From Verrucomicrobiaceae bacterium E54 (GTDB taxonomy: Bacteria; Verrucomicrobiota; Verrucomicrobiia; Verrucomicrobiales; Akkermansiaceae): a stretch of 64,000 nt of DNA. Under the pieces are notes generated by a model. It ran no database searches, was not told where the DNA came from, and saw only the letters and a program-made list of their open reading frames with translations. The position numbers and the translations under genes were made by a program. Each line of letters opens with the position of its first letter. Position 1 is the stretch's first letter. Shown piece by piece: positions 3,116-58,329 of the stretch. Location: NCBI GenBank assembly GCA_022548915.1, contig JAKZES010000009.1:62001-126000 (forward strand). Direction: 5' to 3'.

Positions 3116-4612
3116 TCACGCCGACTCGTCGCCGGCCTCGCGGCCGCTCGGCAGAAGGCGGGCCAAGGATGATACGGAAGTGTAAAAGAAACCGACCGGG
3201 AAGGGAAGCAGAAGAATCGAGGCGGGCCAGCGTCCGTCGAGGGCCGCTTCCACGACCACGAAGAGGAAGAAAAAGCCGAACAGAAGCTCGACCACCGGCG
3301 TCAGCGTCTTCATCGCCTTGTAGCTGCTCTTCTTCCAATCCGAGCGCTTCTTCTTGTGCTCGATGCCATACTTCGGCGTGCGTACGAAGCCGGACTGGTG
3401 GTTGAAGATGGCCTCGATCACCGCCTTGGCATTGTTGATCGACATGCCGATGCCCAGCGCCAGCAACAGCGGCAGGTAGGGCACTTCCTTCCACCAGCTC
3501 TGGGGACGCAGCGCCTTCTGCGCCGTCACGTAGAAGACGATCACCGAAACCGAAGCGAAGAAGAAAATCGGGATGTTGACGATGTAGTAGGTCAACGGTC
3601 CGAAATCGGGTGCCGCATGCTGGTTCGGGTAGATTAGGAAGCACAGGCAGATAAGCAGCAGGTAGGCGAAATTCGAGGTCAGGTGGGCCGTCGCCTCAAG
3701 CTTCGCATAGATCGGAGCGTTGCTGCGCCAGATCGCCGGAAGCACCTTCTTGCAGACCTGGATCGACCCCTTGGTCCAGCGGTGCTGCTGGCTCTTGAAG
3801 CCATCCATGTCGACCGGAAGCTCGGCCGGAGTCTCGACTTCCTTGAGGAAGATGAAGCGCCACCCCTTGAGCTGGGCGCGGTAGCTGAGGTCCATGTCCT
3901 CGGTGAGCGTGTCGTGTTCCCATCCGCCGGCGTCGGCGATGCAGGACTTCCTCCAGATGCCGGCCGTGCCGTTGAAGGTGAAAAAGCGACCGCTGCGGTT
4001 GCGCGCGGTCTGCTCGAGCTCAAGGTGCCCGTCGAGGAACATCGCCTGGATCCGGGTCAGCAGGTTGAAGGTCCGGTTGAGGTGACCCCAGCGGGTCTGG
4101 ATCATCCCGATCCGGTCGTCCGAGAAATAGTGGATCGTCTTTTCGAGCACGTCCGGATTCGGAACAAAATCCGCGTCCAGGATGAAGAGATACTCGCCCT
4201 TGGCGAATTTCGTGCCGTTCTCCAGCGCACCCGCCTTGTATCCGGTCCGGTCGGTGCGGTGGATCATCTCGGCATCGAAACCCTGCGCCTTCAGGCGCTC
4301 GACCCCGGCGCGGCAGATGTCGGTCGTCTCGTCGGTCGAGTCGTCCAGCACCTGGATCTGGAGCTTGTCCTTCGGATAGTCGATCTTCGCGACTGAATCC
4401 AGCAGGCGGTCGACGACGTGGAGTTCATTGAAGACCGGGAGCTGGACCGTCACCAGCGGCCGCTCCTCGAAACGGCGAAGCGGCTCCGGCTTCTTGCGGG
4501 AATGCTTGAGGTAGAGATAGACGATGCCCAGGCGGTGCATGCCGTATCCCGAGAGACCGAGAAGCACGAGGATGTAGGAGGCATACCAAAGGGGTGAGGA
4601 CCACAATTCCAT
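3116..4612 (-). CDS. Processive GT2-family membrane glycosyltransferase (cellulose/mannan synthase-like)
   Basis: A 498-residue inner-membrane protein. An N-terminal membrane helix (about 8-35) precedes a GT-A catalytic domain with the four processive GT2 signatures: DD (90-91), DAD (146-148), TED (237-239) and QQHRW (275-279). Roughly four further hydrophobic segments follow from about 310 on. The motifs mean a nucleotide-sugar is polymerised and probably extruded through the membrane, as in cellulose synthase or CslA-type mannan synthases. No BcsB, c-di-GMP PilZ domain or polysaccharide lyase is adjacent, so the polymer is unknown. The downstream partner is the L,D-transpeptidase lipoprotein, 30 bases away, suggesting an envelope role. 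Confidence 0.87.
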   Translation of the reverse strand: MELWSSPLWYASYILVLLGLSGYGMHRLGIVYLYLKHSRKKPEPLRRFEERPLVTVQLPVFNELHVVDRLLDSVAKIDYPKDKLQIQVLDDSTDETTDICRAGVERLKAQGFDAEMIHRTDRTGYKAGALENGTKFAKGEYLFILDADFVPNPDVLEKTIHYFSDDRIGMIQTRWGHLNRTFNLLTRIQAMFLDGHLELEQTARNRSGRFFTFNGTAGIWRKSCIADAGGWEHDTLTEDMDLSYRAQLKGWRFIFLKEVETPAELPVDMDGFKSQQHRWTKGSIQVCKKVLPAIWRSNAPIYAKLEATAHLTSNFAYLLLICLCFLIYPNQHAAPDFGPLTYYIVNIPIFFFASVSVIVFYVTAQKALRPQSWWKEVPYLPLLLALGIGMSINNAKAVIEAIFNHQSGFVRTPKYGIEHKKKRSDWKKSSYKAMKTLTPVVELLFGFFFLFVVVEAALDGRWPASILLLPFPVGFFYTSVSSLARLLPSGREAGDESA

Positions 4613-46065: not shown

Positions 46066-47436
46066 GTGCTTTTCCGCAGCCTCTGCCGCCACGCCGAAAT
46101 CGGCTCGAACTCCTACCTCCTCGACACCGGAGAAGTCCGCATCGTTCTCGATGCCGGAATGCATCCGAAACACGAGGGACAGGAGGCCATCCCCCATTTC
46201 GAGTTGCTGGAGGAGGGCTCGGTCGATGCGGCGGTGATCACCCATTCCCATCTCGACCACATCGGCACGCTGCCCGTGCTGCTTCGCGACCAACCCCAGG
46301 CGCGGGTGTTCTTTTCCCAGGCCGCGGCCGAACTCGGCTTTGCCATGCTCCACAACTCGGTGAACGTGATGCAGTCGAAGAGGACCGAACTCGGCATCAC
46401 CGACTACCCGCTCTTCCACCACCGCGAACTCGACGAGATCGAAGCCGCGATCGAAACCCGCGCCATCGAGCGCCCCTTCGATCTCGATGCCGACGGCGAC
46501 GTCCGCGCGACCTTCCACGATGCCGGCCACGTCCTTGGCTCGGTGGGCGTGACCCTGAAAACGGGGGGCAAGTCCCTGTTTTACACCGGCGACGTGAACT
46601 TCGAGTCATCCACCCTGATCAAGGGCGCCATCTTTCCCGACGAGCCGGTCGATACGCTGGTCATCGAGACGACCCGCGGTGCCAGCCCGCGCGACCCCGC
46701 CTACACCCGCGACGCCGAGGAGGCGCGCTTCGCGGAGACCATCGAGCGAACCCTCCATCGCGGCGGCTCGGTGCTCATCCCGGTCTTCGCCGTGGGAAAG
46801 ACCCAGGAGGTCCTGACGATGATCCACCGCTTCAAGCGCAAGGGCATGATCCCGGCCAGGGCTCCGGTCGTCATCGGCGGGCTCTCGACCAAGATGACGA
46901 TCATCTACGACAAGTATGCGGGCGGCCTCACCCGGCGGACCGATGACGACTTCCGCATCCTTTCCGACATGGAAATCCAGGCCGGCAGCCGCCGCCGCAA
47001 CCGTGCGCCCATCATTCCCCGGGCGGGCACGATCTACTGCCTGTCGAGCGGCATGATGACCGAGAAAACGGTCTCCAATGCCTTCGCCCGTGCCGGTTTC
47101 CTGGAGAACCCGAAGAATGCGCTGCTTTTTGTCGGCTATGCCGATCCGGACTCGCCCGCCGGCCACATTCGCGCAGCGGCCCACGGCGACAAGATCGTGC
47201 TCGATCCGGCACACCCATCGGCCCCCTTGCGGGCGCAGACGGACGTTTTCGATTTCAGCGGCCACGCCACCCGCGATGACCTGCTGGCCTACGCGAAAAA
47301 GGTCCGGCCCAAACGTACGTTCCTGGTCCACGGCGACCCCGAGGCCAGCCGATGGTTCCAGGATCGCCTGCGCGAGGAGTTGCCCCAGACCGAGCCCATC
47401 ATTCCCGAACCGGGTCTGAGTTACGAACTCGACTGA
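46066..47436 (+). CDS. Metallo-beta-lactamase / beta-CASP family RNA-processing nuclease
   Basis: A 456-residue cytoplasmic protein. The MBL metal motif is ITHSHLDHIGTLP with the further His in HDAGHVLGS and Asp in YTGDVN. The beta-CASP domain is inserted in the usual place (IPVFAVGKTQEVL), and the C-terminus has the FSGHATRDDLL and FLVHGDPEA motifs of CPSF73/RNase-J-like proteins. It probably processes or degrades RNA ends; the exact class cannot be told. Its 3' end overlaps the convergent PKS gene by 16 bases. Confidence 0.88.
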   Translation: MLFRSLCRHAEIGSNSYLLDTGEVRIVLDAGMHPKHEGQEAIPHFELLEEGSVDAAVITHSHLDHIGTLPVLLRDQPQARVFFSQAAAELGFAMLHNSVNVMQSKRTELGITDYPLFHHRELDEIEAAIETRAIERPFDLDADGDVRATFHDAGHVLGSVGVTLKTGGKSLFYTGDVNFESSTLIKGAIFPDEPVDTLVIETTRGASPRDPAYTRDAEEARFAETIERTLHRGGSVLIPVFAVGKTQEVLTMIHRFKRKGMIPARAPVVIGGLSTKMTIIYDKYAGGLTRRTDDDFRILSDMEIQAGSRRRNRAPIIPRAGTIYCLSSGMMTEKTVSNAFARAGFLENPKNALLFVGYADPDSPAGHIRAAAHGDKIVLDPAHPSAPLRAQTDVFDFSGHATRDDLLAYAKKVRPKRTFLVHGDPEASRWFQDRLREELPQTEPIIPEPGLSYELD

Positions 47437-50400
47437 ACGAGTGCCGCGGAGACCTCGTCGGCCAGCGTCAGCAGGTGGTCGGGGCCGAAGAACTCGAAGT
47501 GCCCCAGATCCCTGACGGTCTCGCGGAGCTCGCCGTGGGTCAGCGGTTTACCGTCGACCGCCGCCGCCCATTCGTGGCTGCCGCGCCAGACGCTGACCGG
47601 TGCCTTCACCGGTGCCAGGGTGGCCGAGTGGGCCAGCAAGGCGTGATGCAGGTGAACCGAAAGGGCGAATTCGATGACCCGGGGATCGACAACCTCGGCC
47701 AGTTTCGGCCGTGACTTCAGCCAGCGCCGGATACGCGACTCGCGGGCCTTGGCCGATGCCCCCGCGAGATCCGCGACAAGATCCTGAAGGTCATCGCGGA
47801 TGGTGGTATCCACCAACACCTCGTCGCCGTAGAGTTCGCCGAGCAGCACCAGGATGTCGTCGATGTGCCAGCGGTAGACTTCCTCGGCGCGGTCCTCGGG
47901 AACCGTCGCGACGGCCTCGAGCGGGTCGACCATTCCGAGCCAGGCGACCGTTCTCCCCCGCTCTTCCATGATGCGGGCGATGGCATGGGCCAGCAGTGCT
48001 CCGAAGGAGAAGCCGAACAGGTGAAGATCGCCCCTCGGCTGGCGCAGCGCGATGGCATCGGCATAGCCCGCCGCCATGGCTTCGAAGGCATCGAACTCGC
48101 CCCCTTCCGTGAAAAAGACCCGGGACTGCAGGGCGACGACCGGCCGATCTTCCGGCAGGCGCGCGGCGATGCCGTCATAGAGGGCCACCAGTCCTCCGGC
48201 CGGGTGGATCATGAACACGGGCTCGCGGGTGCCGGACTTCTTGAGGTCGATCAGGCACCGATCCGGAAGTACCAGCCCGGTGTCGCCCTCCTTGGTCGTC
48301 GCCGCCCCCGAGGCGGCGCGCCCGGAGCTCCCGGTCTCGACCTGCCCGCCGGAAATGGTTTCGAGCAGGTGCATCGAGACATCGGCGAGGGTCGTGCCCT
48401 CCTTCATCTTCGTCGGCGGCACCGAAATCTCGAACAGGCTCTCAAGGCGCATCAGCAACTCGAAGGTCATCAGCGAGTCCAGCCCCAACTGCGTGAGCGG
48501 GCGATCCTCGCGGATCTTCGAAGGCGACGAGCGCAAGACCTTGGCCACCTCTTCCTTGAGCATGGACGTCAGCAGGGCGCGCCGTGCTCCCGGGGCGGCA
48601 TCCATCAGGATCTCCCGGGCCGAACGCGCCCCGGTGTCGGCGCCATCATCCCCGGCATGGCGGAAGACCTCTTCATAGCGGGACGATTTCTCCAGCTGCG
48701 GATGGGTCGCACGGAAGGCCTTCCAATCGATCGGAATGACTCCGGTGTGGACGTGACCATTCCCCATCAATCGCTCGAGCAACTCGAGTCCGCGGGCCGG
48801 AGGCAGCGGGATGATGCCCTGGCGCGTCAGCTTCTCGCGCAGCTTCTCGTCGGCCGCCGCCACGCCGACCTCGCCGAGCTGTCCCCAGTTCACGGTCAGG
48901 GCCGGAAGTCCGAGTCCCTTGCGGTAATGGGCCATGGCATCGAGGAACGCATTGGCCGCCGAGTAGTTGCCCTGTCCGGCGTTGCCCAGTGCCGAGCTGA
49001 CCGACGAGAACATGATGAAGCAATGAAGATCCTCGCCGAGGGTGGCCTCGTGCAGGTTCCAGGTGCCCTGGACCTTGGGTGCGAGGACACGCTCCATCTG
49101 CTCCGGCTTCATCCGGCTCATGGTCTTGTCGTCGAGAACCATCGCCGAATGGACGATGCCGCCCAGCGGCATGCCGCTCCGCTTGATCTTCGCGACCAGG
49201 CGATCGACGTCCTTGCGTGAAGTCACGTCCACCGCATCAAAGTGAATGTACGCGCCCTTCACCTTCGCCTCCCTGGCGATCTGCATGAGCTCGTCATCGG
49301 CACGCCCGCTGCGGCTCACGAGATACACGTGGCGTGCGCCGCGGGCGATCATCCACATCGCCGCTTCGCGCCCGAATCCGGTCAGCCCCCCGGTGACCAC
49401 GTAGGCCACGTTGCCGCGGAAAAGGCGCGTTGGATGGGCGGCCTCGGGCCGCGGCACGATCGACGAACCCTCGGCGCTGAGCACGATCTTGCCGATGTGC
49501 CGGGCCTGGGCCATGCAGCGGAAGGCATCCTTCGCCCGCGCCATCGGGAACACCCGGTGGGGCAGCGGCTTGAGCTTGCCACTCGTGAAATGCTCCGAGA
49601 CTTCCCCCAGAAGCGTCTGCAGGCGCTCGCCGCCGTCGTTCATCGCCTGGCCGAGGTCGACGACCGACATCGTCAGATTGTGGCGGAACGGGCGCAATCC
49701 GACCGGGGTGTTTCCGTAAATGTCGCGCTTGCCGATCTCGACGAAGCGGCCGTACGGCGCGAGGCAGGACAGCCCCTTCTCGATCGCCGCCCCGGCCAGG
49801 GAGTTGAGCACCACATCGACGCCCCGGCCATCCGTCACCTCGCGAACCTGGTCGGCAAAGGCAAGTGAACGGGAGTCGAAGACATGCTCGACCCCGAAGC
49901 GGCGGAGGAACTCGCGCTTTTCCGGATTGCCCGCGGTGGCGATCACCCTGGCACCCAGCGAGCGGGCCAGCTGGATGGCCGCCATCCCGACCCCTCCACT
50001 GCCCGCCTGGACCAGCACGGTCTCCCCTTCCCGGATCTTGGCCATTTCCACCAGGGAATAGACCGAGGTCATGAAGGCGACCGGCAGGGTGCAGGCCTCC
50101 TCGAAGGTCATCCCGTCCGGAACCGGCAGCAGCAACGGCGCCGGAACCGTGAGGTGCGAGCCGAAACAACCGGCTCCGAGCGAGATCACCCGGTCCCCGA
50201 CCTTCCAGTCCTTCACACCGGGGCCGACCCGCTCGATCACTCCGGCGCACTCGTCGCCGATCAGCATGTCGATGTCGCTGTCCGACGGGTAGATGCCGAG
50301 TGCCTTCATGACATCACGGAAATTCAAGGCCGCCGCCTTGATCGAGATCTCGACCTGTCCCTCCTTCGGGGTGCGGCGCGCCGCCTCGACGAAGGTCATC

Positions 50401-53400
50401 GAATCCAGCATGCCGGGCGAAAGCACGTCCAGCCGGTAGCCGCGACGACTCGAGGCCGAAGATCTCTTGACCAGATCCTTGGGCAGGAAGCGCAGGGCAC
50501 GCCTTCCGGTCGACCGCAGCGCCACTTCCTCCTCCTTGGAGTCAGAACGGATCTCCGCCAGCAGGTCGCTGACCTCCCGCCGGTCGCCGGCCGGGGGCAG
50601 GTCCACCAGGCGCACCTTGATCCGTGAGTTTTCCGAAATCATCGTCCGCCCCAGACCGATCACGGTGGCACCGGCGGGATTGAGGGTCTTGTCTCCCACC
50701 TTCAAGGCCTGGGCACACCGGGTGAGGAGCATCATCCCCTTCGGCAGCTCGTCACGGGTCGCCGGCAGGGCACGGGCGATGGCCAGCAAGGGGGCCGTCG
50801 TCAATTCCTGGGCCGCCACCAGCGCCTCGGCGGACAAATCCTCCGCCGCCGGCAGATCGAGGCTCCAGCCAAAGATCAGATCGAGCCTGCTCAGCGAAAA
50901 ACGCCGGTCCAGCTCGCGGAAAAGACGCGAGGCGTCCTGCAGATTCCCCGGCCGGATCTCATAGGCCCCGACACCCTTCTTCGCGAACCGCTGACCCCGA
51001 TACACGCAGATGACGAGATCCTTCAGGTCGCCGGAAAGCTCCTCCACCACCGGGGCCAGCGCCCCACCCTCGTCGGTGAAGACGACCCGCACCATCGAGG
51101 GACGGTGGCGCAGGACATTCAGATCGAATGCCCCCTTCTCCCGCAGCGCCCGCTTCGCAGCAACGCGGGCGGCCGCAAAGACGCGTCCCGAAGGGCCGAA
51201 ACGATGCGCTTCGACCGACTCGAAGCCGAGCGACTCGAGCGTCCCGGTCAGGTCCTCCACCGATTCCGACCGCGCCGGCAGGAAACGCTCCGCGGACTCC
51301 TGACCGAAACCGAAGGCCAGCTCCGCCCACAGAGGAGGACTCACCGTGCCCTCGACCAGGCACAGCCCACGCGACTTCATCGCCCGCAGGAGACGTCTGG
51401 AACCCTTCTCCGTGCGCGCGGCCTCGGCTTCCCGCCCGAGCACGATCGCCAGATCGTAGCGCTGCGGATCGAACACGCCGGCAGCCTTTCCCTGGGTCAG
51501 CCCGCTGGAGGCATACTCGACAAAATGATGATCGAAGAACTTCTGCTCGGCCATCACCGCCCGCTTTTCGTCGGGCTCGGCAAAGACGACTTTCGTGCAT
51601 TCGGGATCGAAGCACGCCAGCAATTCCGAGACGGCACCCCCGCTCCCCCCGCCCAGCACGAGAACCTCGAGCGGAGTGTGGTCGGGAATGGCGTCCAGCG
51701 ATGCCCGGAGCGCGTCGCGCAGTGCCAGGTGCTCATGGCGGACCGTCGGCGAATCCTGCGAGAAATGTTCCTCGAGCGAAATCGAGCCGGTCGGCATCAG
51801 GACCTCGCCGACCTTGCGGCGCCCGCGCAGGACGGCCGGCAGGTCGGAGCCGATCCGCTCGACGAAGAACGCCTCGGGGTAGGCGTCGGGATACGACGCG
51901 AGCAGCTTGCGAAAGGCTTCGCCGGATCGAGAGGGCGACTTCGGCAGGTTCGCTCCGCTGATCAGATCCTCGAGACGCCGGCGGGCCGACTGGCTGATGC
52001 CCGCGGGCATCGACAATTCCGCGAGATGCGACAGGGCGATCCGATCCAGGGCCCGGTTCAGTCCACGAAGCCGCCGGGTCACCGGCGCCTCCGGCTTCGG
52101 CCATTCGGGTGCCGGCAGTTCCACCGGGCCGTCCTGCACCGCCTCGAGCGGCGCCTCGATCCAGCCGTTCTCGTAAAGACACTCCTCGGCGCTGGTGGCG
52201 CGGAACTCCTTGGTCCGGACCACCGCCTGGCTTTCCAGCCCCTTGATCTCGGCGACCAGGCGCCCCTGCTCGTCCTGGAGATCCATGTCGCCCCTCAGCG
52301 TCTTGCCACCGCAGTGGACGATGCGGATGCGGCAATAAAACCGACGACCCTCCGATGGACGGAAAATCCGGAAGGAGTCGCAATACACCGGCATGAATCC
52401 GGTCTCGCGGATCAGCGCAAAATCACTCGGCGCCGAGGACGGCATCGCCTGGAAGCAGCAGTCGAGCAATGCCGGCACCAGATGGAACTTCTTCGCCGAG
52501 CGCTCGACCGCGGGTGGGATGTCGATCACCGCCAGCGACTCGTGCTCGCTGTGGTAGAGATTGGAGATCCCCCGGAAGGTGGGCCCGTAGCGAAGCCCGA
52601 CGAAGTCACAAGTACGATAGATGACGTAGCCCGGAATCTCGCGGTTCGCCCGCTCGATCATCGTCTGCGGGTCGAACCTTCGCGACGGCTCCGGCATCGT
52701 GTCGGGGCGGAAGTTGCCCTTCACGTGGAGCGTCCAGTCGTCCGACGATTCATCGGACCGGCTGTGGATCTCAAAGGAAGCGGTCGCCGGCTGGTGCCGA
52801 AACTGCATTTCCGTCGACTCGCCCGCATTTTCCGGCAGGAACAGCGCCTTGACGAAGTCGACATTCTCGACCCTCACGGGCACATCGCCATGCATCTCGT
52901 GGGCGGCGGCGGTGGCCGACTCGAGATAGCCCGCGGCCGGAAAGACGGGGTGGTCCTGGATCACGTGGTCCCGCAGGAAATCGTAGACCTCCAGATCCAA
53001 CCGGGTGCTCCAGGTCGGTGCCGCGGAACCGAGACGGTCGGCCAGCAGCGGGTGCGGCACGTCCTCGACCCGGATCTGGCGGTAGCGGGGCGGCTCATGC
53101 CAGTGGTGGACCCGCCGGAAGGGCATGATGGGGAAATCCTGTTTCCCGCAGGCCACCGGGTAGAGCGCCCCCCAATCGATGGCCTGGCCCAGGATGTGGA
53201 GACGACCGGCCGCCGCGAGCATCGTCAGGCGTTCGTCGGTCCGGCGCTTGAGTGAGTGCACCACCGTGCCGTGGCTTTCCTTGTGCTCGAAGCACTCGGA
53301 AATCGATGCGGAAAGCACCGGGTGCGGCGCGATCTCGAGGAACAGGCGGTAGCCCTCCTCGATCAAGCCGCCGATCGCTCCGGCAAAACGCACCGGCTTG

Positions 53401-55766
53401 CGGACGTTGTGCCACCAGTATCCGGCATCGAAGGTCTTCGGACCGGCCGGACCGCCGGAGACCGTCGAGTAAACGGGAATCGAAGGCTTGCGGAGTTTCA
53501 GCATCCCGAGCTTCTCCAGCAGCGGCTGCCGCGCCCCGTTCATGTGATGGCTGTGGAACGCGTAGCCGACCTTGAGGAAGCGGTTGAACACCTGCCGGGC
53601 GGAAAGCTCGACAGCAATTTCCTCGAGGGGGGCGGCATCGCCGGACAGGGTCACCGACTTCGGCCCGTTGATCGCCGCGAGACCGACCCGTCCCTTGTAT
53701 CCCGCGAGCAATTCCTCGGCCTCCTCCTCGGTGAGCGAGGCCGCCAGCATGCGTCCGTGCTGATCGTCCGCCGCGTCCATGCAGGCGCCACGCCAGAAGA
53801 TGACCCGGCAGGCCTCCTCCAGCGTCAGCACGCCCGCGGTGAGTGCCGCCGCCACCTCGCCGACGCTGTGGCCGACAGTCGCCGCCGGCATCACGCCCCA
53901 CGATTTCCAGAGCGCCGCCAGTCCCGCCTGGATGGCGAAGATCGCCGGTTGGGCGATTGCCGTCTCGTTGATCCGGGACTTCGACTCCGACTTGGAAAGT
54001 TCCTCGATCAGCGACCAGTCGCCCCACCGGCGCATCGTCGCGTCGCAACGCTCGATGACCTCACGGAAGACCGGCTCGTGCTTGAGCAGGTCGCGACCCA
54101 TCGCATACCACTGCGGACCCTGGCCCGAGAAAACGAAGACCGGGCCGGGGTGCTCGAAGTCCATCGGCGTGCCCTCGACCACGCCGGGTGCCGCCTCGCC
54201 AGCGGCCAGCAATCCAAGCTGCTCGACAAGCTCGGCGCGGGTCCGGCCGACCGCCACCGCGCGGTGCATGAACTGGACCCGCCGGGTCGCGGCATCGAGG
54301 CAGACCTCGGCGACATTCGGAGCCGGCTTGGCCGACAGATGGTCACGGAACTGGCCCGCGATGTCGCGGATCGCCTCGGACGTGCCCCCGGACATCGCCA
54401 GGGCGTACCCGGATGCCTTGGAACGATCCGTCTTCGGCGCTGCCGTCGGGCGGAAGCGCCGCTGCGGCACCGGCACCCCCTGCAGGATTGCGTGGGCATT
54501 GGCCCCTCCGAAACCGAATGAGTTGACCCCGACGTACGGCTGGGAAGCACCATCGGGCAGCTCCTCCATCTCGGTCACCACCCGCAGCTTGAGCTTCTCG
54601 AGGTCGATGTTCGGGTTGACCGTCTTGAAGTGCAGGCTCGGGGGAATCTGACGGTGATGGAGCGACAGCGCCGCCTTGATGATCCCGGCGGCACCCGCGC
54701 CGGCCTCGAGGTGACCGATGTTCCCCTTCACCGAGCCCACCGGACAGGGATTGTCGCTGCGGCGTCCGACACCAAGCGCCATGCCGAGGGCGTGGGCCTC
54801 GATCGGGTCGCCGATGGGCGTGCCGGTTCCATGCGCCTCCATGTAGGCGATCTTCGAGGGCTCGATGCCCGCGCGCTCCATGGCTGCCCGGGTCAGGGCC
54901 TCCTGCGACGCCGGGCTGGGCACGGTGATGCCATTGGTGCGACCGTCCTGGTTCGAGGTGGTGGCGGCGATCGTCGCGTAGATCCGGGTGCCGTCCTTGA
55001 TCGCCTGCGACAGCGGTTTGAGCAGCACCATGCCCGCACCCTCGCCACGGACGAACCCGTCGGCCCGCGAGTCGAACGCCCGGCAGCGACCGGTCGGCGA
55101 AAGCATCGCCATCCGGCAGAATGCCAGGTAGGGCACCGGTCCGAGAATCGAGTTCACCCCGCCGGCCAGCGCCATTTCACAATCCCCCCGGTGCAGGCTC
55201 TCGCAAGCGAGGTGCACGGCGACCAGGGCCGAGGAACAGGCGGTGTCCACCGCCACGCTCGGACCCTTGAAATTGAAAACGTAGGAAATCCGGTTCGCCG
55301 CGATGCTGTGAACCGAGCCGGTCGCCATGTAGATGTCGGTCTTGCTCGAGGTGTCGAGCCCCGACTGCATCAGGTGGTAATCGAAGGTCGAAACCCCGGT
55401 GAAGACGCCGACTTGGCGGCCCTTCTTGAAGTCGAACACCTCGCGGCCGTCTTCCAGGGCGCGCCAGGAGGTCTCGAGCAGCATTCGCTGCTGCGGGTCG
55501 ATGAAGTCCGCCTCGCGTGGCGAAACGCCGAAAAACGACGCGTCAAATCCATCGAAATGATCCACCAGGGCTCCCCACTTTGAATAGGTCTTGCCCTCGA
55601 CGCCCATTTTCGGGTGGTAGAACGTATCCTTGTTGAACCGCTCCTTGGGCAGGACTGAAACCGTGTCCTTGCCGTCACAGAGCATCTTCCAGTAGGCCTC
55701 GGGGGTGTCGGAGCTGCCCGGGAAACGGCAGCCAATCCCGACGATGGCGATAGGTTCGAAAGACAT
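47421..55766 (-). CDS. Single-module highly reducing type I polyketide synthase with thioesterase
   Basis: A 2,781-residue multienzyme starting at the ATG 55764-55766. Domains in order, with key residues: ketosynthase (1-425, Cys177, His312, His352), acyltransferase (545-870, Ser634 in GHSVGE; YAFHSH suggests malonyl-CoA), dehydratase (905-1190, His934, Asp1102), a methyltransferase-like region (about 1290-1530, GGGSGG loop near 1373), enoylreductase (1775-2100, GSGGVGMAA), ketoreductase (2120-2300, Ser2255, Tyr2268, LDD motif of B-type KRs), acyl carrier (Ser2431 in LGLDSL) and thioesterase (2510-2781, Ser2587 in GFSFG, Asp2614, His2756). All beta-carbon steps look functional, so iterative synthesis of a reduced fatty-acyl-like chain is expected, released by the TE. 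A Sfp-type transferase is needed but absent here. The GT1 gene lies 125 bases upstream. Confidence 0.95.
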   Translation of the reverse strand: MSFEPIAIVGIGCRFPGSSDTPEAYWKMLCDGKDTVSVLPKERFNKDTFYHPKMGVEGKTYSKWGALVDHFDGFDASFFGVSPREADFIDPQQRMLLETSWRALEDGREVFDFKKGRQVGVFTGVSTFDYHLMQSGLDTSSKTDIYMATGSVHSIAANRISYVFNFKGPSVAVDTACSSALVAVHLACESLHRGDCEMALAGGVNSILGPVPYLAFCRMAMLSPTGRCRAFDSRADGFVRGEGAGMVLLKPLSQAIKDGTRIYATIAATTSNQDGRTNGITVPSPASQEALTRAAMERAGIEPSKIAYMEAHGTGTPIGDPIEAHALGMALGVGRRSDNPCPVGSVKGNIGHLEAGAGAAGIIKAALSLHHRQIPPSLHFKTVNPNIDLEKLKLRVVTEMEELPDGASQPYVGVNSFGFGGANAHAILQGVPVPQRRFRPTAAPKTDRSKASGYALAMSGGTSEAIRDIAGQFRDHLSAKPAPNVAEVCLDAATRRVQFMHRAVAVGRTRAELVEQLGLLAAGEAAPGVVEGTPMDFEHPGPVFVFSGQGPQWYAMGRDLLKHEPVFREVIERCDATMRRWGDWSLIEELSKSESKSRINETAIAQPAIFAIQAGLAALWKSWGVMPAATVGHSVGEVAAALTAGVLTLEEACRVIFWRGACMDAADDQHGRMLAASLTEEEAEELLAGYKGRVGLAAINGPKSVTLSGDAAPLEEIAVELSARQVFNRFLKVGYAFHSHHMNGARQPLLEKLGMLKLRKPSIPVYSTVSGGPAGPKTFDAGYWWHNVRKPVRFAGAIGGLIEEGYRLFLEIAPHPVLSASISECFEHKESHGTVVHSLKRRTDERLTMLAAAGRLHILGQAIDWGALYPVACGKQDFPIMPFRRVHHWHEPPRYRQIRVEDVPHPLLADRLGSAAPTWSTRLDLEVYDFLRDHVIQDHPVFPAAGYLESATAAAHEMHGDVPVRVENVDFVKALFLPENAGESTEMQFRHQPATASFEIHSRSDESSDDWTLHVKGNFRPDTMPEPSRRFDPQTMIERANREIPGYVIYRTCDFVGLRYGPTFRGISNLYHSEHESLAVIDIPPAVERSAKKFHLVPALLDCCFQAMPSSAPSDFALIRETGFMPVYCDSFRIFRPSEGRRFYCRIRIVHCGGKTLRGDMDLQDEQGRLVAEIKGLESQAVVRTKEFRATSAEECLYENGWIEAPLEAVQDGPVELPAPEWPKPEAPVTRRLRGLNRALDRIALSHLAELSMPAGISQSARRRLEDLISGANLPKSPSRSGEAFRKLLASYPDAYPEAFFVERIGSDLPAVLRGRRKVGEVLMPTGSISLEEHFSQDSPTVRHEHLALRDALRASLDAIPDHTPLEVLVLGGGSGGAVSELLACFDPECTKVVFAEPDEKRAVMAEQKFFDHHFVEYASSGLTQGKAAGVFDPQRYDLAIVLGREAEAARTEKGSRRLLRAMKSRGLCLVEGTVSPPLWAELAFGFGQESAERFLPARSESVEDLTGTLESLGFESVEAHRFGPSGRVFAAARVAAKRALREKGAFDLNVLRHRPSMVRVVFTDEGGALAPVVEELSGDLKDLVICVYRGQRFAKKGVGAYEIRPGNLQDASRLFRELDRRFSLSRLDLIFGWSLDLPAAEDLSAEALVAAQELTTAPLLAIARALPATRDELPKGMMLLTRCAQALKVGDKTLNPAGATVIGLGRTMISENSRIKVRLVDLPPAGDRREVSDLLAEIRSDSKEEEVALRSTGRRALRFLPKDLVKRSSASSRRGYRLDVLSPGMLDSMTFVEAARRTPKEGQVEISIKAAALNFRDVMKALGIYPSDSDIDMLIGDECAGVIERVGPGVKDWKVGDRVISLGAGCFGSHLTVPAPLLLPVPDGMTFEEACTLPVAFMTSVYSLVEMAKIREGETVLVQAGSGGVGMAAIQLARSLGARVIATAGNPEKREFLRRFGVEHVFDSRSLAFADQVREVTDGRGVDVVLNSLAGAAIEKGLSCLAPYGRFVEIGKRDIYGNTPVGLRPFRHNLTMSVVDLGQAMNDGGERLQTLLGEVSEHFTSGKLKPLPHRVFPMARAKDAFRCMAQARHIGKIVLSAEGSSIVPRPEAAHPTRLFRGNVAYVVTGGLTGFGREAAMWMIARGARHVYLVSRSGRADDELMQIAREAKVKGAYIHFDAVDVTSRKDVDRLVAKIKRSGMPLGGIVHSAMVLDDKTMSRMKPEQMERVLAPKVQGTWNLHEATLGEDLHCFIMFSSVSSALGNAGQGNYSAANAFLDAMAHYRKGLGLPALTVNWGQLGEVGVAAADEKLREKLTRQGIIPLPPARGLELLERLMGNGHVHTGVIPIDWKAFRATHPQLEKSSRYEEVFRHAGDDGADTGARSAREILMDAAPGARRALLTSMLKEEVAKVLRSSPSKIREDRPLTQLGLDSLMTFELLMRLESLFEISVPPTKMKEGTTLADVSMHLLETISGGQVETGSSGRAASGAATTKEGDTGLVLPDRCLIDLKKSGTREPVFMIHPAGGLVALYDGIAARLPEDRPVVALQSRVFFTEGGEFDAFEAMAAGYADAIALRQPRGDLHLFGFSFGALLAHAIARIMEERGRTVAWLGMVDPLEAVATVPEDRAEEVYRWHIDDILVLLGELYGDEVLVDTTIRDDLQDLVADLAGASAKARESRIRRWLKSRPKLAEVVDPRVIEFALSVHLHHALLAHSATLAPVKAPVSVWRGSHEWAAAVDGKPLTHGELRETVRDLGHFEFFGPDHLLTLADEVSAALVQSSS

Positions 55767-55891
55767 GCGCACGAATATCAAGGGTGGCGGCGGACGGAAC
55801 TATCCCTCGCCGCGCTGTCTGTAAGCCGATTCATGCCACGCCGACAAGTGGCTTCATGCCGAATCTCCCGACGGATGGCCGCTGGCGGCAA

Positions 55892-57148
55892 TCAATCCCG
55901 TGCCTTAGCCAGCTTCTCGATCAGATCTGCGGACTCCCTGCGCCAGCCCTCCGCATCGCAGCGGGCCGCGGCCGCTTCCGCTCCGCGCCGGATCTCCGAA
56001 TCGTGGAGCACCCGGTCGAGCTCCCGCCGAATCTGCCACGACGTCGCGGTCGGATCATAGGCCCAGCGTCCGGCACCCAGGCGGGTGACCCTCGCACCGT
56101 GGTCCGGATGGTCCATCGTCTGGGCGACGATCAACTGTGGGATCCCGAACCGCAGTCCCTCCGCGACCGCACCCGCGCCACCGCGATGTACCAGCGCCCG
56201 GCATCGCGGAAGCACCTGGCTCATCGCCACCGGAGAGGTGATGCAGTGATTGCCTTCGATCTTCGGAGGGCCCTCATGGTCGAAGGAAAGAAGGAGCGTG
56301 CGGGTGCTGAAATCGTTGCAGGCGGAGATCAGCTGCTCGACCAGCTTCTCACTCGGCCGGATGGCCGAACCCTGGGTGATCGCCGCCGGAGGTTCGCCCG
56401 CGTCGAGAAACTCACCGAGAGCCGGGTCGAGCGGCATGACCTGCTCGGACTGAAGGTAGGGGAAACCGGTTTGACGCATCTGAGCCGGCATGCGCGCTCC
56501 CAGCCGCCCGTACCAATCCGGATAGAGGGCCAGCGGCAGACGCGCCCCGAACATCCAGTCGCGGTAGGAGCCGTGCCGCTCGTCCAGGCCCACCTTGCGG
56601 CGGAGCGGATTGAGGAACTTCCACATCATCCGGTCGATCACCCGACTCTCGATGAGCCGGGTCGCTTTCGTGTAAAGCCACCCGGGCGCGCTCCTCGACA
56701 CGGCATCACTCAGATGCCCGCCGATGCAGGCACGGTCTTCCTCGGAGGTGAGCTCGGTGGGTGCGACGTAGACCGCGACCCCCGGAATCCCCTTCTTCTC
56801 CTCGACGATGCGCGCACTCGATACGAGGCTGCGATAGACCAGCACATCGTCGTTCCCGACCGTCTCCATCAGCACGTCCAGAAAGGGCTCGGCTTCCTTT
56901 TCGCCGGCCTCGCGCAACGCCGCGAAACTTCTCAGCGGAGAAGAGAGCCGGGGATCCCGGATCGTCCGCTCCACCGTCGCCGCCTCTCCGGCGGGGATCG
57001 AATCAAAGCCCCATTTTTTCAGGGAGGCCTGATGGAAGGGATTGACCACCCACCGCACATCGCAACCCCGCTGCCGAAGTTCGACGGCAAGGACCAGGAG
57101 CGGGGCGATATCTCCGAAACTACCCGCGCTGGTGAAGATGAAACGCAT
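55892..57148 (-). CDS. GT1-family glycosyltransferase, likely acting on a lipid or polyketide
   Basis: A 418-residue GT-B enzyme. The N-terminus IFTSAGSFGDIAPLLVLAVEL is the acceptor-domain start of UGT/macrolide-type transferases. The C-terminal donor-binding motif is HRGGAGAVAEGLRFGIPQL, followed by a P-x-x-x-D/H segment (MDHPDHGARV). No signal peptide or membrane segment. GT1 enzymes attach a sugar from NDP-sugar to hydrophobic aglycones. Its place just upstream of the PKS on the same strand suggests that it glycosylates the PKS product. Its start is 21 bases from the end of the glutaredoxin-like gene, so the three genes probably form an operon. Confidence 0.9.
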   Translation of the reverse strand: MRFIFTSAGSFGDIAPLLVLAVELRQRGCDVRWVVNPFHQASLKKWGFDSIPAGEAATVERTIRDPRLSSPLRSFAALREAGEKEAEPFLDVLMETVGNDDVLVYRSLVSSARIVEEKKGIPGVAVYVAPTELTSEEDRACIGGHLSDAVSRSAPGWLYTKATRLIESRVIDRMMWKFLNPLRRKVGLDERHGSYRDWMFGARLPLALYPDWYGRLGARMPAQMRQTGFPYLQSEQVMPLDPALGEFLDAGEPPAAITQGSAIRPSEKLVEQLISACNDFSTRTLLLSFDHEGPPKIEGNHCITSPVAMSQVLPRCRALVHRGGAGAVAEGLRFGIPQLIVAQTMDHPDHGARVTRLGAGRWAYDPTATSWQIRRELDRVLHDSEIRRGAEAAAARCDAEGWRRESADLIEKLAKARD

Positions 57149-57169: not shown

Positions 57170-57538
57170 TCAATCGAGGAACTTGACCTTGCCTCCGGGA
57201 ACCTCGCCACGGGCCATTGCCTCGTGTTCCTCGTCGCTGCACGCCGAGTTGGTCGGAGCATCCGCCTCGGCATCGACCGGGGCCACCTTTCCGTTCTCCA
57301 GCATCCACGCCTCGACTTCCTCGCCCGAGACATCCGCGAGCATCTGGCCGTCCACCTCGACGCAGGGCGACAGCGGCTGGCCGCTCTTCTGCTCCATCTC
57401 CCAGCGGAATGCCGGGTTCTTGATGATGTCCTTCTCCTCGAATTCGAGGTCATACTTGCGCATGATGGCCCGCACACCCTCGCTCCAGCCGCAGTAGGTC
57501 TTAAGATAAGCCGTGATTTTCGGTTGGTTCTCGCTCAT
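57170..57538 (-). CDS. Glutaredoxin-like protein with C-terminal extension
   Basis: A 122-residue thioredoxin-fold protein starting at ATG 57536-57538. The active-site region reads TYCGWSEG in place of CPYC or CGFS, so it has one catalytic Cys. The cis-Pro strand LSPCVEVDG is at about residue 58 and carries another Cys. The last 40 residues are acidic and lie outside the fold. It may be a monothiol redox or iron-sulfur handling protein; a role with the GT1/PKS genes is suggested only by its place at the head of the same run. Confidence 0.75.
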   Translation of the reverse strand: MSENQPKITAYLKTYCGWSEGVRAIMRKYDLEFEEKDIIKNPAFRWEMEQKSGQPLSPCVEVDGQMLADVSGEEVEAWMLENGKVAPVDAEADAPTNSACSDEEHEAMARGEVPGGKVKFLD

Positions 57539-57578
57539 GGCGCGGAACATAACGGGACAATCCCCGATCGCAAGCCCG

Positions 57579-57707
57579 ATGCATCCGCCCGCCCCGTGGA
57601 CCCGAAGACGCACCGTCGGCGCCGTCGCGTCGCTTCTGTGGTGCGTCTCTCCGGTCCTGCTCCTCGGGCTGGAATGGGGAATCGCCTTCCTTACCCGGTT
57701 CGACTGA
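57579..57707 (+). CDS. Possible 42-residue single-pass membrane peptide
   Basis: The open frame from ATG 57579 encodes a basic start (HPPAPWTRRR) and one strongly hydrophobic helix (VGAVASLLWCVSPVLLLGLE), ending four bases before the start of the RibD-like gene. The close spacing and membrane pattern argue for a real gene, the short length against it. No function is suggested. Confidence 0.4.
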   Translation: MHPPAPWTRRRTVGAVASLLWCVSPVLLLGLEWGIAFLTRFD

Positions 57708-57711
57708 CGCC

Positions 57712-58329
57712 ATGTCCGCACCCCGCATCTCCATCAATTTCGCCGTCTCGGCCGACGGCAAGATCACCTCGGTCGAGGGCAGACCCTCGGGCTGGACCTC
57801 CGACGCCGACCACGAGCGCCTGCTCGAACTCCGGCAGACGGCCGACGCCCTGATGGTCGGTCGTGGCACTCTCGAAGCCGACCGCATGACCATGAAGGCC
57901 CCGCAGCAACCGCTCCGCTGCATCGTCTCCGGCAGGGGCCGCTTCGATCCCGGGCATCCGGTTTTTTCCACGGACGGCGGCCCGATCCATCTGCTCGGCA
58001 CCGGGGGGCAACCGAACGCCATCCCCGGCACCACGACCCACCACATGTCGCTGCCAGATTTTCTCGAATACCTCCACCGGGAGCAAGGCGTGCGGCACCT
58101 TCACTGCGAGGGCGGCGGTCACCTCGGCCGCTCGCTGGCCGAGCTCGACCTTATCGACGAAATCCACCTCACCTGGGCCGGCCACAAGCTTTTCGGCGGA
58201 GCCGCGGCACCCGGCATCACCGCTGCGGGCGGGGAATTCCTGCCCGCCTCGCGAGCCTTCCGCCTGACCCATTTCGAGCCCCGTGAGGAACTCGGAGAGG
58301 TGTTCCTGAGCTACGAGCGGACTCAGTGA
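57712..58329 (+). CDS. RibD C-terminal / dihydrofolate-reductase-like reductase
   Basis: A 205-residue NADPH-dependent reductase domain as in the C-terminal half of RibD. The N-terminus ISINFAVSADGKIT and the ADALMVGRGTLEADR segment are family features, and the glycine-rich CEGGGHLGRSL binds cofactor. The deaminase domain of RibD is absent, so it may act in a split riboflavin pathway or on another pteridine- or pyrimidine-like substrate. It converges with the His-rich lipoprotein gene and overlaps it by 7 bases. Confidence 0.85.
   Translation: MSAPRISINFAVSADGKITSVEGRPSGWTSDADHERLLELRQTADALMVGRGTLEADRMTMKAPQQPLRCIVSGRGRFDPGHPVFSTDGGPIHLLGTGGQPNAIPGTTTHHMSLPDFLEYLHREQGVRHLHCEGGGHLGRSLAELDLIDEIHLTWAGHKLFGGAAAPGITAAGGEFLPASRAFRLTHFEPREELGEVFLSYERTQ

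Follow-up and report, generated by a model that had tools for sequence, protein, structure and literature searches.

The window, a stretch of 64,000 nucleotides from Verrucomicrobiaceae bacterium E54, holds a gene for a GT1-family glycosyltransferase (GT) and, downstream of it on the same strand, one for a single-module type I polyketide synthase (PKS). The preliminary description had reported this arrangement, and both reading frames are present as described. The question that the locus raises is what two such genes make together. Judging from sequence, the GT1-PKS pair, which is found in three related genomes, probably makes an undescribed glycolipid. In a literature search outside of which most subscription journals lie, we found no description of a GT1-PKS pair or of this PKS family.

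The gene pair and the domains of the synthase

The GT (55892..57148, minus strand, 418 aa) is the upstream gene of the pair. The PKS (47421..55781, minus strand) has 2786 aa when read from a TTG codon and 2781 aa from an ATG at 55766, which is the likelier start, and the genes are 110 bases apart if the TTG is used, 125 if it is the ATG. Convergent with the PKS, and overlapping its end by 16 bases, is a gene for an MBL/RMMBL-type protein (46066..47436, plus strand), 80% identical to the product of L115:3628-5199, which itself has Lactamase_B, Beta-Casp and RMMBL matches. On the other side there is a glutaredoxin-domain ORF (57170-57721, minus strand; conserved part 57170..57580), followed by a RibD_C gene and by an LpxB-like gene that was named by eye. 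With these neighbours, it is right that no transporter, regulator or phosphopantetheinyl transferase (PPTase) stands immediately beside the pair; two matches to the ACPS family of PPTases are found on other contigs of the genome, C88 and C66. The GC content is 0.663 for the PKS and 0.655 for the GT, as compared to 0.652 for the window. At third codon positions (GC3) the values are 0.845 and 0.788; six other genes were measured at 0.825-0.905, so that no gene of the eight has a lower value than the GT.

The only other KS of the genome in a frame of PKS length is on contig C66 (G000:C66, L078:5582-16105). It belongs to a long type I PKS of 3508 aa, a hybrid of KS-AT-ACP-aminotransferase-C-A-T-TE type, which lies beside a beta-barrel porin gene and has an ACPS-family match nearby, in a 230-aa frame that is Sfp-like by size. 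PKS frames of 3026-3678 aa were also seen in eight other genomes of the genus and family.

The Pfam matches of the window PKS are all above the cut-offs and come in the order KS, KAsynt_C_assoc, AT, PKS_DH_N and PS-DH, ADH_N and ADH_zinc_N (the ER), KR, PP-binding and Thioesterase. Numbered in the TTG reading and all on the minus strand, the KS (54480..55757, aa 9-434) has Cys182, His317 and His357, the AT (53184..54140, aa 548-866) has the motifs GHSVGE and YAFH, the latter presumably malonyl-type, and the DH (52209..53054, aa 910-1191) has His939 and Asp1107. The ER (49476..50384, aa 1800-2102) shows GSGGVG, the KR (48876..49406, aa 2126-2302) an LDD motif and Tyr2273, the ACP (48369..48560, aa 2408-2471) Ser2436, and the TE (47442..48221, aa 2521-2780) Ser2592, Asp2619 and His2761. 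When the three TE-bearing PKSs were aligned (window, G373 and G358), the KS, DH, KR, ACP and TE residues given here were invariant, as were Ser639 and His743 of the AT; we take these aligned residues to have the catalytic roles usual for their domains. The alignment agrees with the earlier claim that the reductive domains have intact catalytic residues, and the TE triad, previously numbered Ser2587/Asp2614/His2756, is the same one, shifted by five residues because of the ATG start at 55766. With KS, AT, DH, ER, KR and ACP in one chain, and with their catalytic residues, the protein is a type I PKS with a single fully reducing module. That it could be a decaying gene was ruled out by the single open frame and the conserved active sites.

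Among solved structures, the TE matched an NRPS TE (E 8.4e-18) and then the TE of Pks13 (E 3.4e-12), its nearest PKS relative. According to the accessible part of PMC9210659, the Pks13 TE releases its product onto polyols, with trehalose preferred, and the similarity could mean that the window TE too is an acyltransferase, passing the chain straight to a sugar or polyol, with the GT1 building or extending the sugar part. The similarity to Pks13 is weak, however, covering no more than residues 14-138 or so of a query of 286 aa, and the NRPS TE outscores it, so that we regard such a direct transfer as unlikely, though it is the strongest of the alternative readings.

Between the DH and the ER lies a stretch that had been called MT-like (51012..52136, minus strand, aa 1216-1590), followed by a structural (psi) KR region (50442..51011, minus strand, aa 1591-1780), where the profile matched MAS, PikAII, AmphB and other PKS chains. 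Profile, sequence and fold all identify the MT-like stretch as a PKS C-methyltransferase (cMT), and the description can be sharpened to a decayed one. A profile built from 16 PKSs of the family, including that of the window, matched the CurJ cMT with E 1.1e-108, and also citrinin CMeT, DisA and LovB, and the window stretch as single query had CurJ as its best match (E 1.4e-16). An AlphaFold2 model of moderate confidence (mean pLDDT 68) gave the CurJ cMT as the best PDB fold (E 9e-17, TM 0.66), and the LovB fold was matched as well. We inspected 28 family PKSs, picked for reach and not at random, and in 24 of them the acid and the glycines of the ILEIGAGTGG motif are kept; the acid is gone in the window and G373, and the glycines are broken in G358 and G250. 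Of the 28, 16 have the His of an N-x-x-H motif and 12, including the window, G373 and G358, lack it, and a Glu further along, at the likely dyad position, is kept in the window and is Gln in G373. PKS C-methyltransferases work by a His-Glu dyad, as the accessible text of PMC9821293 has it, and in our reading the N-x-x-H His may be the His of that dyad. An active cMT was rejected, as both the SAM-motif acid and the catalytic His are missing by sequence, and a chain that is unbranched, with no C-methyl groups, is therefore predicted. An eroded cMT SAM motif was also observed in six single-module PKSs of like domain order (L149, L156, L158, L160, L169 and L172), whose hosts are Achromobacter, a beta-proteobacterial MAG, Accumulibacter, Paraburkholderia and Stappia.

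The glycosyltransferase

The GT has Pfam matches to EryCIII-like_C and Glyco_transf_28, and a score of 64.3 bits for the former (PF06722; gathering score 31.7) places it in the GT1 superfamily. Its best relative among solved structures is GtfA (E 1.1e-20). The NCBIfam matches were an activator-dependent GT, the rifamycin-inactivating Rgt, MGT and the macrolide-inactivating Mgt, all far below the cut-off, and for the macrolide GT family (TIGR01426) 74.3 bits were obtained where the cut-off is 260. These names may suggest that the PKS product is a bioactive acid or lactone, and that the GT1, in the manner of macrolide GTs, serves self-protection or a prodrug strategy by masking the product inside the cell. 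However, no NCBIfam cut-off is reached, and neither an exporter nor a glycosidase is found immediately beside the pair, which makes this explanation quite improbable.

When 33 GTs were placed in a tree, the PKS-linked ones of the window, G373 and G634 formed a clade of their own (100/100) on a long branch; the tree drew a long-branch warning, with G634 among the rows concerned, and L157 (a short match) and G158 (L034) were omitted from it. Only these three GTs have DH at a site that is DQ in the other 30, and they read HRGG where the rest mostly read HHGG. From GT1 structures we take the DQ/DH site to be in contact with the donor sugar, and the change might serve as a lead, though only as a lead, to an altered donor sugar in the PKS-linked GTs. 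GT1 homologues in genomes that lack a close PKS copy, a point raised in the preliminary description, do exist. They were found in 34 other genomes of the 288 searched in the phylum, at 19-35% identity, and fall outside the PKS-linked clade. At the level of loci, our search of the genome contigs collection gave no relative of the GT protein.

Conservation of the unit and the empty site

The KS-AT query was aa 1-900 of the window PKS, and for long queries such as this, scoring was confined to the best 2-6 first-look candidates of each genome. Matches were obtained in 33 of 288 genomes of the phylum at E<=1e-80, in 102 of 386 genomes of the order at E<=1e-150, and in 13 of 260 genomes of the family at E<=1e-230. 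A close PKS is present in three of the 260, the window (100%), G373 of the same genus (78%) and G634 of another genus (69%); the remaining ten of the 13 are 46-48% identical. A profile of the three linked GTs matched 33 of the family genomes at E<=1e-20, with E-values of 6.8e-224 or better in these same three and 2.7e-70 or worse in the other 30, so that the close PKS and the close GT subfamily occur in the same three genomes. The GT is in each case directly upstream of the PKS on the same strand, with gaps of 110, 97 and 108 bases. G373 has the flanks of the window, the MBL (80%), glutaredoxin (88%), RibD_C (69%) and LpxB-like (82%) genes. In G634, an LTD/CotH protein is found upstream of the pair, and the contig stops within the PKS, beyond which the TE and the cMT are unseen.

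The PKS is present in two of the 18 genomes of the genus. Both flank genes, MBL and glutaredoxin, were found in 17, and in four of these they adjoin each other or are separated only by the unit, which is present in the window and G373 and absent in G491 and G591; the remaining 13 have them on separate contigs or at a distance of 120 kb or more. The congener G491 has an empty site, with the two flank matches, one at either edge, 86 bases apart and an MBL protein that is the closest to the window's (85%). As the unit occupies this very site in G373, a clean loss in G491 and a transfer are both possible. In G591 the flank genes are separated by 1.37 kb, and the ORF found between them is without a match in Pfam. 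An AT-like match in L265 (149 residues, 28.9%) was taken by its position and size for a putative FabD rather than for what is left of a PKS.

As the LpxB-like gene lies just past the glutaredoxin and RibD_C genes, it could be argued that the GT serves envelope or lipid A metabolism, and that the PKS is next to it by mere chance. In G634, however, the pair adjoins the LTD/CotH protein instead, and G491 and G591 keep the LpxB-like gene while showing no PKS or GT match in the searches of the 260 family genomes. These three genomes led us to reject the lipid A role that the neighbouring genes suggest for the GT, and we consider a chance adjacency very improbable. The view of PKS and GT1 as one minimal unit is supported, as they occur in the same three of 260 genomes and in two neighbourhoods, and are both absent from the empty site; this conservation has n = 3, with G634 ending inside the PKS.

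A comparison of the domains of the window and G373 showed identities of 86% for the KS and the ACP, 85% for the ER, 78% for the AT, 74% for the KR and 68% for the DH, as compared to 55% for the cMT and the psi-KR, 54% for the TE and 45% for the GT. The GT is the fastest-evolving of the parts compared, the flanks being 69-88% identical. Thus, the parts that build the chain are held, and the exit parts (TE and GT) drift together with the dead cMT. That the TE and GT drift with their motifs kept fits a change of product and weak constraint alike.

Release domains and relatives of the PKS

The 28 inspected PKSs end in different ways, with a TE in three, a thioester-reductase-like domain (R) in nine, C or C-A-T in five and no release domain in 11. 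Pfam confirmed the R in four cases and C-A-T in one, the other calls being made by BLAST. A fused TE was seen only in the window, G373 and G358. Within the fetched stretches, a condensation enzyme is found beside eight of the 11 PKSs that have no release domain, and an ABC ATPase homologue near six, and full sets add a desaturase, an FtsX/MacB permease and a LolA-like protein. At L068:14466-19603, and also at L070, L129, L130 and L134, a sister PKS without release domain heads an operon-like run that comprises a condensation enzyme, a desaturase, an ABC ATPase, an FtsX/MacB permease and a LolA-like protein, though not every run is complete as called. It looks like a possible system in which a lipid is made and then exported to the outer membrane in a Lol-type manner. 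Another type of ending was observed in the PKS-NRPS chains L125-L128 (family f62), which end in a domain of ~400 aa (PKS aa about 3600-4020); that of L126 had no Pfam match at E 0.001 and is by eye like an NAD-binding reductase.

In a KS-AT tree of 64 rows, made by a quick method with SH-aLRT support only and with an odd letter make-up in several rows, the window, G373 and G634 form a clade (100) that G358 joins (99). The sister group brings together G356 and the R-type PKSs that the tree contains (group 90, drawn open; join 96), followed by L143 (95); G350, G472, G653, G648 and G603 are omitted. Nearest to the window PKS are uncharacterised PKSs from the same order, together with one acidobacterial MAG. 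L144, a MAG named as Verrucomicrobiales, stands among the f62 rows, which are taken to be of the same order, and this is our ground for speaking of the Verrucomicrobiota. The preliminary description had asked for the clade of the KS, and among these 64 rows, drawn up without the MIBiG reference set, the KS-AT of the window PKS falls outside any product-defined clade.

Other phyla were covered by at least 79 genome-contig loci, of which at least 16 have a GT or MT match and at least three a GT (L143, L157 and L218). In L143 (L143:527-8443), an Acidobacteria MAG, a GT1 (30%) adjoins the PKS (KS-AT 50%) downstream on the same strand; the PKS frame is broken in the record and gave no TE or MT match. 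The L143 GT clusters with the GTs of G243, G178 and G251, outside the clade of the window GT. In L157 (Micromonospora) the match is a partial one in a 335-aa ORF, with a single-module PKS 1.8 kb upstream of it, and the GT match of L218 is separated from modular PKS genes by 6.4 kb. A divergent GT in G653 and G648 (24-27% to the window's) is one TPR gene away from the PKS, and in G048 a GT1 (22%) is divergent from the PKS and adjoins it. In G039, a close relative of G048, the GT and the PKS are on different contigs, which implies that such adjacency can be incidental. A GT homologue on another contig than the PKS was also the case for the related PKSs of G187, G190, G199 and G217, and no GT match was found within the 19.9-kb locus of G358, the nearest PKS with a TE. 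The GT1 genes near the PKSs of L143, G653, G648 and G048 imply that recruitment of a GT1 to this PKS family may be repeated, on evidence that is weaker than that for the unit of three genomes; G358, G187, G190, G199 and G217 speak against it.

It is conceivable, though we hold it to be doubtful, that the Verrucomicrobiales have a PKS core with interchangeable exits, and that the exit in the window is a complete two-gene glycolipid cassette gained or lost as a whole. In such a cassette, TE release and a GT1 subfamily changed from DQ to DH would give a new class of glycolipids, with TE and GT changing quickly and the chain-building domains fixed. The PKS family is a natural experiment, in which related cores have TE, reductase, C-A-T or acyltransferase-plus-export exits, and this variety could help to show which domains determine the kind of product.

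Proposed pathway and known systems

Observed directly are the gene structure, the intact active-site residues, a cMT without its catalytic residues and a pair that is conserved in three genomes. The reading that we prefer, with a probability of roughly 0.57, is that the two genes encode a pathway for a glycosylated fatty-acid-like polyketide, in which an unbranched acyl chain would be released by the TE and glycosylated by the GT1. A PPTase encoded elsewhere would activate the PKS, and its one module would be used repeatedly, the AT loading malonyl units and the KS condensing them. Reduction by KR, DH and ER, the degree of which we infer, would give a largely saturated chain, unbranched as the cMT no longer methylates, and the TE would free it, presumably as an acid. 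The GT1, probably on the same transcript, would take the PKS product as acceptor and add a sugar to a hydroxyl (for instance a beta-hydroxyl from a KR-only cycle) or to the carboxylate. If this is true, two genes are enough to direct a glycolipid in a phylum of little-known lipid chemistry, the minimal unit around a bacterial single-module PKS includes a GT, and the small size of the system makes it cheap to test by expression.

PKSs are not new in themselves in this phylum, as type I PKS clusters in Luteolibacter soli (PMC11427321) and divergent clusters, PKS included, in Verrucomicrobiota (PMC8692599) are reported in the accessible parts of these papers. Among known enzymes, the MAS/Pks2-type iterative PKS (NF041183, PDB 9d2z) gave the top score for the whole protein, 1304.7 bits in NCBIfam and 1117.7 bits in PDB, and at 1304.7 bits, the equivalog cut-off being 2400, the window PKS was rejected as a member. 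The MAS/Pks2-type enzymes, which in mycobacteria feed complex lipids, are likewise single-module and reducing, but the window PKS differs by the added cMT region and the TE. A PfaA-type PUFA synthase was also rejected (TIGR02813; 369.6 bits, cut-off 1010.1).

The fungal highly reducing PKSs, such as LovB and PsoA, have the domain order KS-AT-DH-cMT-psiKR-ER-KR-ACP, and the window PKS has it in common with them. It differs from them by the lost cMT residues, the C-terminal TE and the GT1 partner. The KS scores against solved structures were 441 bits for CurL, 410 for PikA1, 402 for MAS, 377 for LovB and 346 for PsoA (7zma heads the list solely by summing two KS domains, 375 and 362). Thus the earlier label HR-PKS-like holds for the domain order and is not supported for the ancestry, and a fungal-type enzyme was rejected on these scores and on the absence of the cMT SAM motif and catalytic His. 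The window cMT is closest in sequence and fold to the CurJ-type domains, but is without their SAM-motif acid and catalytic His.

The GT has EryCIII-like_C in common with the bacterial GT1 enzymes of EryCIII, MGT and GtfA type, and departs from them in its scores below the NCBIfam cut-offs, in DH for DQ, and in HRGG for the HHGG-type motif. The closest systems to the PKS are the verrucomicrobial ones with other exits (reductase, C-A-T or stand-alone condensation enzyme), which are about 46-55% identical in KS-AT and have the same order up to the ACP; in contrast to these, the PKSs of the window, G373 and G634 are the only ones in the family with a close GT beside them.
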